The notes under the pieces were generated by a model. The model had not been told where the DNA came from. It made no database searches and saw nothing but the letters and a program-made list of their open reading frames with translations. A stretch of 64,000 bases of DNA from Petasospora fabianii (taxonomy: Eukaryota; Ascomycota; Saccharomycetes; Phaffomycetales; Wickerhamomycetaceae): contig CP048715.1 in assembly GCA_022641835.1 (NCBI GenBank), positions 1,736,001 to 1,800,000 of the forward strand. The letters run 5' to 3'. The position numbers were made by a program, and so were the translations under genes. How positions within the stretch are numbered: position 1 is the stretch's first letter; each line of letters begins with the position of its first letter. Shown piece after piece: positions 4,086 to 60,198 of the stretch.

Positions 4086-4680
4086 ATGTCTCGTTTCATT
4101 CCTGAGGGGAAGAGTGACCTCAAGGCTCTCCAAGCCAACGAGAATAAGGCCTCGAGCAAGTTCCATGAGGAGGAAGAGGAGAAAGAGGCACTCTCTCTAT
4201 ACGAACAGATGAAGCTCAATCATATGCAGAAGGAGCAAGAGTACCAGGAGAAAGTCAAGGCACGTAACCAACCACATAAGATTGACGAAAGGGAACATGC
4301 TTACTACGAGGGACTTCGTTTCAAAGAGCAAGAGAAGGAAAGTTTGAGAAAGAGAGAGCTTGAGCAGGGAGTTGAGGAGTTTGAGATGTGAGTATGAACT
4401 AGAGAGTCTTGTATGATGACGCATTACTAACAATGGAAACAGACTTAAAAGGACTAAAGCAGAGACTCCAGTAGAAAAAGAATCCATTGATATCACCGAG
4501 TTAGCTTTACCAAGTATTAAGATAACAAGGAAGAAGCTCACTAAGAAACCTATCATGGCTAAGCAGAGGGACAACTCATCATCACCAACCAACTCCGAGC
4601 CATCAAAGGATACACAAAAAGCGAAACCTGTCACCAATGCACTAATATCTGGATACTCATCAGAATCAGATTCAAATTAA
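4086..4680 (+). CDS. FYV6: Fyv6/PSME3IP1 (NIP30)-domain splicing factor (two exons)
   Basis: Fyv6 is a spliceosome component active at the second catalytic step that influences 3' splice-site choice. Exon 1 is 4086-4387 and exon 2 is 4443-4680; the 55-nt intron starts GTGAGT at 4388, has branch ACTAAC and ends ACAG at 4442. The joined protein is 179 aa. It starts MSRFIPEG, has the NIP30 core SLYEQMKLNHMQKEQEYQEK followed by a charged helix around residues 40-95, and ends in an SGYSSESDSN tail like that of metazoan PSME3IP1. Reading straight through the intron would stop one codon after EFEM, so splicing is required for the C-terminal half. Confidence 0.88.
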
Positions 4681-25881: not shown

Positions 25882-26380
25882 ATGCTTTTCCTCTCTTTCT
25901 TTAAGACGCTTGTGGACCGTGAGGTATGTTTGGTTGCTGTTGGCTGTTCTGGCTCCTTCGACGAAAAGGTTACTAACATTCATGATGATAGATTGTTGTT
26001 GAAGTAAGCACACATTTATAAAGATATACACCAGGGGCTATGTGAAAAGATTTACTAACCCAAACCACAGCTCAAGAATGGAGTTGAGATCAAAGGTACG
26101 CTAAAGACAGCAGACCAGTTCTTTAACCTAAAGCTCGATAATGTTAGTGTTGCCAATGAGTCCAAGTTCCCACATCTTAGCTCGGTCAAGAGCATATTTA
26201 TCAGAGGCTCCACGGTGAGATATGTTCAGATTAGCAAAAATGATGTCGATACAAACTTGCTTCAGGATGCTGCCAGAAGAGGTGAGTAGATATTTTTGGA
26301 GAAAAGCCTTTTATGATGATACTAACTATAGTTAAACAGAGGCCATGGCCACATCAGGTAAGCCAATTGCCGGTCGTTGA
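25882..26380 (+). CDS. LSM2: U6 snRNA-associated Sm-like protein LSM2 (four exons incl. 12-nt microexon)
   Basis: Lsm2 is a subunit of the Lsm1-7 (mRNA decay) and Lsm2-8 (U6 snRNA) rings. Exons: 25882-25923, 25992-26003, 26071-26281, 26340-26380. Introns of 68, 67 and 58 nt begin GTATGT, GTAAGC and GTGAGT, each with ACTAAC 11-14 nt before its 3' AG. The 101-aa product reads MLFLSFFKTLVDRE, IVVE, LKNGVEIKG..., FIRGSTVRYV, NLLQDAARREAM; yeast Lsm2 is MLFFSFFKTLVDQEVVVELKND..., so the 12-nt exon supplies four conserved strand residues. All phases agree (0, 0, 1). No frame longer than about 70 codons exists here, so a simple frame scan misses the gene. Confidence 0.93.
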
Positions 26381-26574: not shown

Positions 26575-26846
26575 TTGCTGTAATGGCATTCTAGTGGAAT
26601 CGTTTGCGTGTCTTTCGTTTGCAGAGTTTCCGTTTCGTTGAGGTGAGTGTCCTGGTTCGACTCCCGCGGAGGGAAAGTTCCACTGCGAGAAATCCAGTGA
26701 TTTTGAACTTACCCGGCAATGGCAGCCCCACCGCCTCAGGGGAGAAATCCAGCAGGGCAAAGCTGCCCGTGGGAGGGCGATCAGGATGGCACATCCCTCT
26801 TATTGTTATGGGACTTGCAGATAGTCTGCGAAACCATTTTTTTTTT
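26575..26846 (+). ncRNA. SCR1: Signal recognition particle RNA (7SL, SCR1)
   Basis: RNA scaffold of SRP. The 5' end GCTGTAATGGCATTCTAGTGG matches the start of S. cerevisiae SCR1 and contains the Alu-domain UGUAAU motif. Near the 3' end, GGGGAGAAATCCAGCAGG followed by GCAAAG and CCCGTGGGAGGGCGATCAGG mirrors SRP helix 8 (GNRA loop GGA-GAAA-TCC, AGCAGG, then CAAA). Pol III signals are internal: an A-box-like TGGCATTCTAGTGG at 26584-26597 and a perfect B box GGTTCGACTCC at 26654-26664, with a ten-T terminator at the end. About 270 nt, the usual fungal size and half that of S. cerevisiae SCR1. The 5' end is approximate. Confidence 0.92.
26837..26846 (+). terminator. Pol III terminator of SCR1
   Basis: Uninterrupted run of ten T residues at the 3' end of the SRP RNA gene. 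Confidence 0.88.
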
Positions 26847-34200: not shown

Positions 34201-37200
34201 ATGGGTGCTCAACACAGAACCGCCGAGTTCCATACACTCGAGCGTGAGGACCGTTTCAAGAACCCACCTAAGGATAAGTCCGCATACCCACTTCTTGAAG
34301 AAGCTGTGAGACCACATGTTGGCTCTTTCAACGCCCTTACAGAAGGTCCAGGTGGTGGTCTCTTGAACCTTGGTGTCAAGGATATCGGTACTAAGACCAT
34401 CTTTGATTCGAATGAACCGGGAAGACTCGGAAACAAGCTTAACATCAGAGTTGATTCCGTGCAGCTCGCTAGACCTGCTGTTCCACAGAATGATAAACTC
34501 AGTGTTGATAGAAAGACATGGCCACACGAGGCTAGAGAAAGAATGGTCAGTTACAGAGGTAAGCTTCTGCTCAAAGTTGCATGGTCTGTCAATGACGGCG
34601 AAGAAGTGAGTGAAATCAGAGAAGCTGGTCAAGTTCCAATCATGCTTAAGACAAACAGATGTCATTTGGAGAAGCTTTCTCCAGATCAACTCGTGGAGCA
34701 TAAGGAGGAATCAGATGAATTGGGTGGTTACTTCATTGTTAACGGTATCGAGAAACTTATTCGTATGCTTATCGTTCAGCGTCGTAATCATCCAATGGCT
34801 ATTATCCGTCCATCTTTTGCCAACAGAGGTGCCTCATATTCCGCTTTTGGTATTCAAATCAGAAGTGTCAGACCAGATCAAACTTCTCAGACTAACGTTC
34901 TTCACTATTTGAATGATGGTAACGTTACATTCAGATTCTCTTGGAGAAAAAACGAATACCTTGTACCAGTGATGATGATCCTTAAGGCATTGATTGAGAC
35001 TAATGATCGTGAAATCTTTGATGGTATCGTTGGTGCTGATACAGAAAACTCCTTCTTGACAGATCGTCTCGAGTTGTTACTCAGATCATACAAGTCCTAT
35101 AGACTTAAATCCAATCAGGAGACATTGGCTTACTTGGGTGATAAGTTTAGAGTTGTCTTTGGTGCCACTCCAGATGTTTCTGATGTTGATGTCGGTAAGG
35201 AAGTTCTCAAGAGAATTGTCCTTGTTCACTTGGAGGACAACAGAGACAAGTTCAGAATGCTTTTGTTCATGATTAGAAAGCTCTACACACTTGTCGCTGG
35301 TGATTGTTCCCCTGATAACCCAGATGCTACACAGCATCAGGAAGTTCTTCTCGGTGGTTTCCTTTATGGTATGATTATTAAGGAGAAGATTGAAGAGTAT
35401 TTGCAAAACATCAGACTTCAGATCCAGTCTGACTTGAACCGTGGTATTGCGGTCAATTTCAACGATAGAAAGTACATGACAAGGGTCTTCTCAAGAATCA
35501 ATGAAAACATTGGTCAAAAGCTTCAATACTTCTTGTCCACTGGTAACTTGGTTTCTCAATCTGGTCTCGATTTGCAACAAGTTTCGGGTTACACCGTTGT
35601 TGCTGAAAAGATTAACTTTTACCGTTTCATCTCCCATTTCAGAATGGTTCATAGAGGTTCCTTCTTTGCTCAATTGAAGACCACTACAGTGAGAAAATTG
35701 CTTCCTGAATCATGGGGATTCCTCTGTCCCGTGCATACGCCCGATGGTTCCCCATGTGGTTTGCTTAACCATTTTGCTCACAAGTGTGCCATCTCCACTG
35801 AAGAGAGTGATGTGTCTCAAGTCGCATCATGTCTCAGTTCACTTGGTGTTTCTCCAGCTCACACATTCGCTGCTGGTCCTAACGTGTGCTGTGTTCAGCT
35901 CGATGGTAAGATTGTTGGTTGGACTACACATGACCAGGCCAAGGTTGTTGCTGACACTTTAAGATTCTGGAAAGTTGAAGGAGATCATGGTTTACCATTG
36001 GACTTGGAGATTGGTTACGTTCCACCATCTACCAAGGGTCAATACCCGGGTCTTTTCATCTTTGGTGGTCGTTCTAGAATGATGCGTCCAGTTCGTTACT
36101 TACCATTGGACAAACAGGATATCCTTGGTCCATTCGAACAAGTGTACATGAACGTTGCCGTTACCCCAGAGGAGATTGAGAACAATGTTCATACACACGT
36201 TGAATTCACCCCAACAAACATCTTGTCTATCCTTGCTAACTTGACTCCATTCTCTGACTTTAACCAATCCCCAAGAAACATGTACCAATGCCAGATGGGT
36301 AAGCAAACTATGGGTACACCAGGTGTTGCCCTTGTGCACAGATCAGATAACAAGTTGTATAGATTGCAGTCTGGTCAGACTCCAATTGTCAAGGCCAATT
36401 TGTACGATGATTATGGTATGGATAACTTCCCTAACGGTACCAATGCAGTTGTTGCTGTTATTTCCTACACTGGTTACGATATGGATGATGCAATGATTAT
36501 CAACAAGTCTGCCGATGAGAGAGGATTCGGTTATGGTACCGTTTACAAGGTTGAAAAAGTGGATTTATCACAGTCTAGACGTCGTGGTGATCCTGTGACA
36601 CAACATATTGGATTTGGTCCTGATGATTGGCCAAAGGAGTGGAGAAACATCTTGGATACTGATGGTTTGCCAATGATTGGTGCTAGAGTCGAAGAAGGTG
36701 ATCCAATTTGTGCCTATTATGATGAAGTGGTTGGTAAGACCAAAGTGAAAACTTATCACTCTTCTGAAGGTGCATACATTGAGGAGGTGAAATTGCTTGG
36801 TGATGATAATGGTGATAGTGAATTCCAGAATTTGACTATCAAGTACAGAATCACTCGTGCTCCATTGATTGGTGACAAGTTTTCATCTAGACACGGACAG
36901 AAGGGTGTTTGTTCTAGAAAATGGCCACAAGTTGATATGCCATTCTCAGAGACTGGTATTCAACCAGATGTTATTATCAACCCTCACGCTTTCCCATCTC
37001 GTATGACGATTGGTATGTTTGTTGAATCGCTTGCTGGTAAGTCTGGTGCCCTCCACGGTATTGCACATGATTCTACCCCATGGAAGTTTAGTGAGACTGA
37101 TACACCAGCTGATTACTTTGGTGAACAGTTGAGAAAAGCTGGATACAACTACCATGGTAATGAGCCAATGTACTCTGGTGCCACTGGTGAAGAGTTAAGA

Positions 37201-37710
37201 TGTGACATTTACATTGGTGTTGTTTACTATCAGAGATTGAGACATATGGTTAACGATAAGTTCCAAGTTCGTTCTACTGGTCCAGTTAACTCATTGACTA
37301 TGCAGCCTGTTAAGGGTCGTAAGAGATCTGGTGGTATCCGTGTTGGTGAGATGGAACGTGATGCTCTTATTGGACACGGTTCTGCCTTCTTATTACAGGA
37401 TCGTCTTCTCAATTCATCTGACTACGCACAGACCTCAATCTGTCGTGGATGTGGATCTTTGTTATCTACACAGACTTCTGTTCCAAGAATTGGTTCTGCT
37501 TCTACGATCCGTTGTCGTAACTGTTCCACCAAGTTTGAGCACTCAACCTCATATGTTGATGAGTCTGATATCTGGGAAGATGGACTCGGTAACAAGTTTG
37601 TTGGTGGTAACGATACCACCACCGTGGCCATTCCATTTGTTCTCAAGTACCTCGATTCCGAGCTAGCTGCTATGGGTATCCGCATGCGTTACAATGTGGA
37701 ACCAAAATGA
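34201..37710 (+). CDS. RPA135: RNA polymerase I second-largest subunit A135
   Basis: 1169 aa from the ATG at 34201; the frame extends upstream only to a GTG. Near-identical over long blocks to S. cerevisiae Rpa135: RTAEFHTLERE at the start, GGYFIVNGIEKLIRMLIVQRR, WGFLCPVHTPDGSPCGLLNH, YTGYDMDDAMIINKSADERG (catalytic metal B region), GDKFSSRHGQKG, and a C-terminal zinc ribbon (CRGCGS, CRNCS). Ends RMRYNVEPK as in yeast. A CTG codon at the conserved Leu of RGKLLLK supports standard decoding. Confidence 0.98.
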   Translation: MGAQHRTAEFHTLEREDRFKNPPKDKSAYPLLEEAVRPHVGSFNALTEGPGGGLLNLGVKDIGTKTIFDSNEPGRLGNKLNIRVDSVQLARPAVPQNDKLSVDRKTWPHEARERMVSYRGKLLLKVAWSVNDGEEVSEIREAGQVPIMLKTNRCHLEKLSPDQLVEHKEESDELGGYFIVNGIEKLIRMLIVQRRNHPMAIIRPSFANRGASYSAFGIQIRSVRPDQTSQTNVLHYLNDGNVTFRFSWRKNEYLVPVMMILKALIETNDREIFDGIVGADTENSFLTDRLELLLRSYKSYRLKSNQETLAYLGDKFRVVFGATPDVSDVDVGKEVLKRIVLVHLEDNRDKFRMLLFMIRKLYTLVAGDCSPDNPDATQHQEVLLGGFLYGMIIKEKIEEYLQNIRLQIQSDLNRGIAVNFNDRKYMTRVFSRINENIGQKLQYFLSTGNLVSQSGLDLQQVSGYTVVAEKINFYRFISHFRMVHRGSFFAQLKTTTVRKLLPESWGFLCPVHTPDGSPCGLLNHFAHKCAISTEESDVSQVASCLSSLGVSPAHTFAAGPNVCCVQLDGKIVGWTTHDQAKVVADTLRFWKVEGDHGLPLDLEIGYVPPSTKGQYPGLFIFGGRSRMMRPVRYLPLDKQDILGPFEQVYMNVAVTPEEIENNVHTHVEFTPTNILSILANLTPFSDFNQSPRNMYQCQMGKQTMGTPGVALVHRSDNKLYRLQSGQTPIVKANLYDDYGMDNFPNGTNAVVAVISYTGYDMDDAMIINKSADERGFGYGTVYKVEKVDLSQSRRRGDPVTQHIGFGPDDWPKEWRNILDTDGLPMIGARVEEGDPICAYYDEVVGKTKVKTYHSSEGAYIEEVKLLGDDNGDSEFQNLTIKYRITRAPLIGDKFSSRHGQKGVCSRKWPQVDMPFSETGIQPDVIINPHAFPSRMTIGMFVESLAGKSGALHGIAHDSTPWKFSETDTPADYFGEQLRKAGYNYHGNEPMYSGATGEELRCDIYIGVVYYQRLRHMVNDKFQVRSTGPVNSLTMQPVKGRKRSGGIRVGEMERDALIGHGSAFLLQDRLLNSSDYAQTSICRGCGSLLSTQTSVPRIGSASTIRCRNCSTKFEHSTSYVDESDIWEDGLGNKFVGGNDTTTVAIPFVLKYLDSELAAMGIRMRYNVEPK

Positions 37711-58009: not shown

Positions 58010-58675
58010 ATGGTACGAACTTACAGATGAAACATACAATCGATCAATTAAACTAACACTCAAAAAAGTCAACTAATCTCTATTCATTCTCTGAGGAAAC
58101 AGCCTCAAGATTGCGCAAATTCCGCTTTGCAAGTGCCAGAAGTGATAAGGTACAAGCTGTGATCTGTGAGTAGTGTGGCATCTTGATTGATATCATGAGA
58201 CCTTAAGAGATTTGCCTTATGAGTTGGATACCTTGGCTGGGTGAATACCCACCTGATCCATCCAGAAACAAGATCAGTACTAACACCCCCAGATGAGATT
58301 GACAGAGTCTCTTATGAGATCCGTGAGGATCCAAATGTCGAAGACTCACCAGTGACATCAATCGAGGAACTTGTGGAAGAGCTTCCAGATAACAGTCCTC
58401 GCTATGTTGTACTATCATACCCATTGACACTTAAGGATGGTCGTAAATCATCTCCATTAGTTATGCTTTATTGGCTACCACCAACTAGTCAACAATCATT
58501 GCGCATGCTTTACGCTGCTGCTGTTGAACTTTTTAGAGAAAAAGCTGGTGTTTCCAAGTATGTTTCCCCCTATCTACTCTTTTATGACTTGACAATATAA
58601 TACTAACCGGATAACAGGCTTATTGAAGTGACGGAAGAGGAAGATTTTGAAGACATTGAGGACAAGGTTCTATAA
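58010..58675 (+). CDS. AIM7: GMF/ADF-H family Arp2/3 debranching factor (four exons)
   Basis: Aim7/Gmf1 binds Arp2/3 and dissolves actin branches. Exons: 58010-58012 (the ATG alone), 58069-58165, 58293-58557, 58618-58675; introns of 56, 127 and 60 nt start GTACGA, GTGAGT and GTATGT, each with ACTAAC 8-11 nt before its 3' AG. The joined frame is exactly 141 codons. The 140-aa product begins MSTNLYSFSEETASRLRKFRF (yeast MSNLYKIGTETRNKIKKFR), continues IEELVEELPDNSPRYVVLSYP, RMLYAAAVELFREKAGVSK and ends KLIEVTEEEDFEDIEDKVL, matching Aim7 throughout. The single-codon first exon rests on the homology of the residues that follow. Confidence 0.9.
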
Positions 58676-59059: not shown

Positions 59060-60198
59060 ATGGGTAGACTTCATTCTAAGGTACGTCTTTCCATTAGAAG
59101 CAACTATTGAGGTGCTTTGGGAAGAATCCATTCATGAATTCGGATCCTTTCGGTTTGGTTCTCTATGTCTTTAAAGGTTATCTCTCTTCTTCTTTCTTCT
59201 ATGAAGAGAAGGCTCACCACGTCTATGTTTCAACATGGGAAGTTTCTGAGATGGTCTCCTCCAAATGCCTTTGACCCTCATCAACAGTTGTGTGTCTCTG
59301 TGACTAGATTGACTATCAACATTTTGCTGATGTGGCACTCTTACGCATTTTATGAGGATTGAGCGTCTTGGGCTTGCTCATTTTGACTGACATTGGTAAA
59401 TGAGTTTGAGGGAGATGACTGACAATGAAGCCTTGCTGGGGGATACCAGTTTATCTTTTGATTTTCACAACCCTCTGCAGATACTGCCCCATTTGTCCAG
59501 TGGTTTGTTTATAACTGCTTGGTTTAACGAATGGTTTGGATTGGTATCTGCGCAGCCACGTGAATTCGAGTTGAGATTGTTCTCTGCTCTGCTTGTCTCT
59601 GCCATCATTTCTGTCCTTCACCCTCTGCCTAGCAATGGGGAAGTTGTACGGGGTTGGCTAGATTGTACAAGAGAGAAATTTTGAGGCACTTAACTTGTGG
59701 CTGTTCTTTTTGCTGTTCACTCTTTACTTGATTGTGTAACGGTATACTAACAAATCTTAACAGGGTAAGGGTATCTCCTCTTCCGCTCTTCCATACTCCA
59801 GAAACGCTCCAGCTTGGTTCAAGCTCTCTTCTGACGCTGTTGTTGAGCAGATCTTCAAGTACGCTAAGAAGGGTTTGACCCCATCCCAGATTGGTGTCTT
59901 GCTCAGAGATGCTCACGGTGTTTCTCAGGCTAAGGTTGTCACTGGTAACAAGATTCTCAGAATCTTGAAGTCTAACGGTCTTGCCCCAGAGATCCCAGAG
60001 GACCTTTACTTCTTGATTAAGAAGGCTGTTTCCGTTAGAAAGCACTTGGAGAGAAACAGAAAGGACAAGGACTCTAAGTTCAGACTCATTTTGATTGAGT
60101 CTAGAATCCACAGATTGGCTAGATACTACAGAACCGTTGCTGTCCTCCCACCAAACTGGAAGTACGAGTCTGCTACTGCCTCTGCTCTCGTCAACTAA
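59060..60198 (+). CDS. RPS13: 40S ribosomal protein S13 (uS15), two exons
   Basis: 151 aa. Exon 1 is 59060-59080 (MGRLHSK) and exon 2 is 59764-60198 ([18 protein letters not shown]...). The 683-nt intron starts GTACGT at 59081, has TACTAAC 12 nt before the acceptor and ends TTAACAG at 59763. The product is nearly identical to eukaryotic uS15, including [36 protein letters not shown] and [17 protein letters not shown]. Codon bias is extreme (TCT, AAG, GGT, AGA), as for ribosomal proteins. The intron is about ten times longer than any other in the window; frames inside it (59165-59362, 59400-59684) are not credited. Confidence 0.97.

Follow-up and report, generated by a model that had tools for sequence, protein, structure and literature searches.

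The LSM2 gene of Petasospora fabianii contains an internal coding exon of only 12 nt, which, judged from the sequence, is very probably spliced constitutively. It lies between two short introns, and it encodes four residues that fall within the first β-strand of the Sm fold. We found nothing in the sequence that would suggest a role of this microexon as a regulatory switch. If it is constitutive, this 12-nt exon of an intron-poor budding yeast offers a natural case for studying how a spliceosome working by intron definition copes with introns that nearly touch. It also carries a warning for genome annotation: if the exon is missed, Lsm2 appears without four residues of its first β-strand, or LSM2 is absent altogether.

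Results

Structure of the LSM2 gene and identity of its product

The DNA analyzed here is a stretch of 64,000 nt (referred to as the window), in which LSM2 occupies positions 25882–26380 of the plus strand. The gene consists of four exons of 42, 12, 211, and 41 nt and three introns of 68, 67, and 58 nt. According to its translation, coding exon 1 (25882–25923, +; 42 nt; MLFLSFFKTLVDRE) provides the N-terminal helix and the start of strand β1, and its product is the counterpart of residues 1–14 of Lsm2 from S. cerevisiae and human. The phase 0 intron 1 (25924–25991, +; 68 nt) reads GTATGT...GATAG and carries the branch sequence TTACTAAC, with an ATAG acceptor 15 nt past the branch adenosine. 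Exon 2, the microexon (25992–26003, +; 12 nt), has the sequence ATTGTTGTTGAA and encodes IVVE, which in the well-established Sm fold corresponds to the middle of strand β1. Intron 2 (26004–26070, +; phase 0, 67 nt; GTAAGC...CACAG) likewise contains the branch sequence TTACTAAC, followed by an ACAG acceptor 12 nt past the branch adenosine. Exon 3 (26071–26281, +; 211 nt) encodes the bulk of the LSM domain. It is followed by the phase 1 intron 3 (26282–26339, +; 58 nt; donor GTGAGT, branch ATACTAAC, acceptor ACAG) and by exon 4 including the stop codon (26340–26380, +; 41 nt), and the spliced reading RREAMA resembles RREVMT of S. cerevisiae. The original prediction of a 12-nt microexon between two complete introns proved exact to the base, and both introns possess a donor, a branch site, and an acceptor; intron 3 and exon 4 had been left unmentioned, even though they lie within the predicted span. 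Just downstream of LSM2, a fungal SRP RNA gene was detected at positions 26575–26841 (+; Rfam RF01502, 126.7 bits).

The spliced coding sequence comprises 306 nt including the stop codon, corresponding to a protein of 101 amino acids. A phmmer search aligned this protein with S. cerevisiae Lsm2 without any gap across residues 1–92 (E = 3.1e-41). The identity amounts to 71% with S. cerevisiae Lsm2 and to 57% with human LSm2, the latter alignment also being gapless. LSm2 of S. pombe was matched as well, ahead of every other Sm/LSm protein. Among the PDB matches obtained with phmmer, the top seven were all LSm2 (E = 3e-41 to 9e-32), with SmD1 coming next at 8e-8, and the Pfam LSM domain was recognized with 65 bits. 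The full-length match to Lsm2, preferred over other LSm and Sm proteins, supports the assignment of the gene as LSM2, as had been proposed. IVVE aligns with VVVE of both S. cerevisiae and human Lsm2, and V16, V17, and E18 are invariant among the three proteins. The earlier view that IVVE supplies exactly the residues required by the Lsm2 core is thus borne out. LSM2 has no CTG codon, so that a reassignment of CUG would be irrelevant for this gene. Elsewhere in the window, CTG and CTA are nearly absent from the RPA135 gene (34201–37710, +), where each accounts for 1 of 100 leucines, and the sole CTG codon stands at a position where S. cerevisiae has leucine, too. The RPA135 protein matched its S. 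cerevisiae counterpart with 2198 bits and that of S. pombe with 1803 bits, which places the host in Saccharomycotina.

Alternative splice models

All 329 one- and two-intron paths with GT/GC–AG boundaries and an open reading frame were enumerated and scored against S. cerevisiae Lsm2. The model with the 12-nt exon ranked first with a score of 173, the runner-up reached 159, and plain skipping of the microexon 139. A gapless Lsm2 alignment was obtained only when the 12-nt exon was included. The runner-up, which is also the top single-intron model, would dispense with the microexon entirely: exon 1 would continue across GTATG, adding VCLV, and one GC-donor intron of 135 nt (25936–26070) would lead to LKNG. 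Although this path keeps the protein length (VDREVCLV-LKNG), its GC|TGTT donor is unlike any consensus donor in the window, the invariant Glu18 is lost, and the strong GTATGT donor, the TACTAAC box of intron 1, and the GTAAGC donor are left without explanation. We therefore consider this model practically negligible and retain the 12-nt exon.

The signature TACTAAC-N(5–25)-AG-12 nt-GTRWGY occurs once in the window; the average over 60 dinucleotide-shuffled versions was 0.017. The microexon is more than a chance arrangement. As a predicted internal coding exon between spliceosomal introns, it falls below the upper size limit of about 27–36 nt for microexons. Two further arrangements were rejected. 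A 5′-UTR intron ending at the AG at position 25905 within exon 1 would have a poor donor and would eliminate the conserved start. The other is a stwintron, in which one splice signal of an external intron is split by an internal one and the two are not separated by a coding exon; here, each intron is complete by itself, and conserved coding sequence of 12 nt lies between them.

Splice signals in comparison with other introns of the window

As a reference, we used the 13 introns modeled in the window, three of which belong to LSM2 and ten to seven other split genes. The latter are an NCS2-like gene (a name based on our own recognition), a Fyv6-like gene, NDUFS4, an NRK1-like gene, an EPT1-like CDP-alcohol transferase gene, a GMF1-like gene, and RPS13, and six of these seven are backed by Pfam. 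The donors in the set are mostly GTAAGT, GTGAGT, GTATGT, and GTACGT, the ACTAAC core is invariant (13 of 13), and the branch adenosine is located 9–19 nt ahead of the acceptor. Apart from that of a ribosomal protein gene, the introns are 52–127 nt long, a range that includes both introns flanking the microexon. All three LSM2 introns have a consensus donor, a full TACTAAC box, and an ordinary acceptor, just as the other ten. Leave-one-out scoring against the window introns yielded 9.4 bits for the donor and 12.2 bits for the branch site of intron 1. For intron 2, the branch site reached the same 12.2 bits, which is the top value in the set, and the GTAAGC donor scored 5.0 bits, making it the weakest of the three LSM2 donors. 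The weak donor of intron 2 could favor some retention of this intron or some skipping of the microexon.

Several of the other split genes showed features of their own. In the GMF1-like gene (58010–58068, +), the coding sequence of the first exon apparently consists of the ATG alone, which is followed by a 56-nt intron (58013–58068; branch AAACTAAC) and then by STNLYSF; the donor GTACGA is the weakest of the 13. Exon 1 of the RPS13-like gene (59060–59763, +) encodes MGRLHSK and precedes an intron of 683 nt, by far the longest in the window. The Fyv6/FAM192A-like gene (4086–4680, +; Pfam PF10187), which has a 55-nt intron, is the second splicing gene in the window, Fyv6 being a spliceosome-associated factor. 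The presence of NDUFS4 indicates that complex I, which is missing in Saccharomycetaceae, is encoded. Together with the RPA135 scores and the fungal SRP RNA, this makes a budding yeast from outside Saccharomycetaceae the most likely host.

RNA folding predicted a 9-bp stem (25956–26004) in which intron 1 (approximately 25956–25964) pairs with the microexon and the first base of the following donor. The loop would hold the branch box and the acceptor of intron 1, which makes the structure attractive as a device that sets the order of splicing. Since this fold was not significantly better than those of shuffled sequences (z = −1.08), we do not claim such a device. For the whole region, the comparison with shuffles resulted in a z value of +0.92, and folding thus revealed no cis signal for regulation.

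Consequences of exon skipping and intron retention

The 12 nt can be removed without a change of frame, as originally predicted. The resulting form would, however, not be "silent": conserved β1 residues are lost, and the score of the Pfam LSM domain drops by 13.5 bits, from 65 to 51.5. Skipping would therefore not be neutral. As a control, we scored 87 four-residue deletions over the conserved part of the protein with phmmer, among which the loss of IVVE ranked 45th against the yeast and 29th against the human protein. By this measure, the loss of IVVE is close to the average of four-residue deletions in this protein, so that the scores neither single out IVVE nor prove tolerance or loss of function.

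The original prediction further envisaged a possible autoregulatory loop, in which regulated skipping generates an in-frame Lsm2 without IVVE that modulates the U6 snRNP. Apart from the preserved frame, it may be said for this loop that the strong donor of intron 1 would meet a perfect branch site and acceptor across 147 nt, an intron size tolerated by the genome, and that low-level skipping of internal exons is known for S. cerevisiae TAD3 and DYN2 (PMC5793784). Yet skipping is rare in budding yeast and tied to splicing errors, being elevated for TAD3 when the polymerase is fast and for DYN2 when the first branch point is weakened (PMC5793784). Together with the loss of conserved β1 residues, the 13.5-bit decrease, and the lack of a significant RNA structure upon folding, this makes the loop very improbable.

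Retention of any single LSM2 intron leads to a premature stop or a changed C-terminus. Intron 3 is located near the stop codon, and its retention would yield a protein ending with RRGE-stop in place of RREAMATSGKPIAGR; this change is possibly near-neutral.

Discussion

The two introns of 67–68 nt with their full branch boxes suit intron definition, so that the 12-nt exon need not be regulated. Yeast introns are recognized by intron definition, in which Prp40 links U1 at the donor to the branch-point protein, and exon definition across microexons is sterically infeasible (PMC8378409). Shortening of a flanking intron in C. elegans frees a microexon from its need for PRP-40 (PMC8378409), and under intron definition splicing efficiency follows the length of the intron, not that of the exon (PMC8624252). 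In the case of LSM2, two short introns with strong signals, only 12 nt apart, would each be bound by U1 at the donor and by the branch-point binding protein and U2 at TACTAAC. As each intron would be recognized across itself, the exon need never be recognized as a unit. The two introns are probably removed in succession, because U1 on the second donor, just 28 nt from the branch adenosine of intron 1, would collide with the complex on the intron 1 branch site and acceptor. Intron 1 would be transcribed first and, according to the scores, has the better donor of the two. For short yeast introns that are presumably intron-defined, constitutive inclusion of the exon is most likely, a view that is also suggested by the protein produced.

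If splicing of LSM2 is regulated at all, a frame-breaking failure around intron 2 seems likelier than skipping. In such a scheme, a limiting supply of U6 snRNP or Lsm2 would cause intron 2 (or intron 1) to be retained or mis-spliced, and an early stop followed by mRNA decay would let LSM2 output track the splicing capacity. Retention of intron 2, the one with the weakest LSM2 donor, indeed reads IVVEVSTHL-stop, and retention of intron 1 is also frame-breaking. Furthermore, in S. cerevisiae LSM2 an alternative 3′ splice site at a distance of 47 nt from the canonical site breaks the frame; it is covered by 81 reads and was verified by PCR (PMC4607428). In Yarrowia, intron retention predominates (PMC2911113). 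A simple loop of this kind suffers, however, from the sign of the feedback: low Lsm2 would result in less splicing and hence in still less LSM2 mRNA, which is positive feedback instead of homeostasis. Moreover, S. cerevisiae treated with splicing inhibitors shows no compensating transcriptional response of its splicing genes (PMC10592967). We consider this scheme unlikely. Even less credence is given to LSM2 as a sensor of splicing capacity, whereby non-simultaneous splicing across 12 nt would confer unusual sensitivity to the U6 snRNP, and failure would produce decayed or IVVE-less mRNA. Constitutive inclusion remains the preferred reading.

The 12-nt exon probably owes its existence to a second intron located 12 nt upstream of an older one. 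We take the start codon of S. cerevisiae LSM2 to be at chrII 170623, which places its intron after codon 18, that is, at the site of intron 2. On this basis, intron 2 is probably the older intron and common to S. cerevisiae LSM2. The S. cerevisiae gene has a single intron of 128 nt (chrII 170677–170804, worked out from PMC4607428). Intron 1 may be a gain of this lineage, or other lineages may have lost it. An origin of intron 1 as a copy of intron 2 or 3 was rejected, as no match longer than 6 nt was found between the intron bodies (p ≥ 0.16). Homologues of LSM2 were not found in viral and prokaryotic contig collections, as expected for such collections.

The closest known system is the S. cerevisiae ortholog LSM2 (YBL026W), whose intron, with the start codon as given above, occupies the intron 2 position (phase 0 after VVVE). 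Unlike the gene described here, it contains no microexon, and the variant known from it uses another 3′ site and does not arise by exon skipping. In the S. cerevisiae two-intron genes DYN2, SUS1, and TAD3, an internal exon is also flanked by yeast introns on both sides and can occasionally be skipped (PMC5793784), but these are different genes, and their skipping represents error or has been studied in mutants. Plant microexons of 15 nt or shorter and the mammalian 4-nt MPC1 microexon are similarly tiny, can be constitutive, and are often missed by annotation (PMC8831610, PMC9929638); they belong, however, to other kingdoms, and animals rely largely on exon definition. Another fungal microexon is present in Trichoderma virens Xlr2 (PMC11121469). 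In this filamentous fungus, the microexon is regulated by glucose and controls a DNA-binding domain, whereas that of LSM2 is read as constitutive. Microexons, including fungal ones, are therefore already known (PMC11121469), and the LSM2 exon is an unusually small one in a splicing gene.
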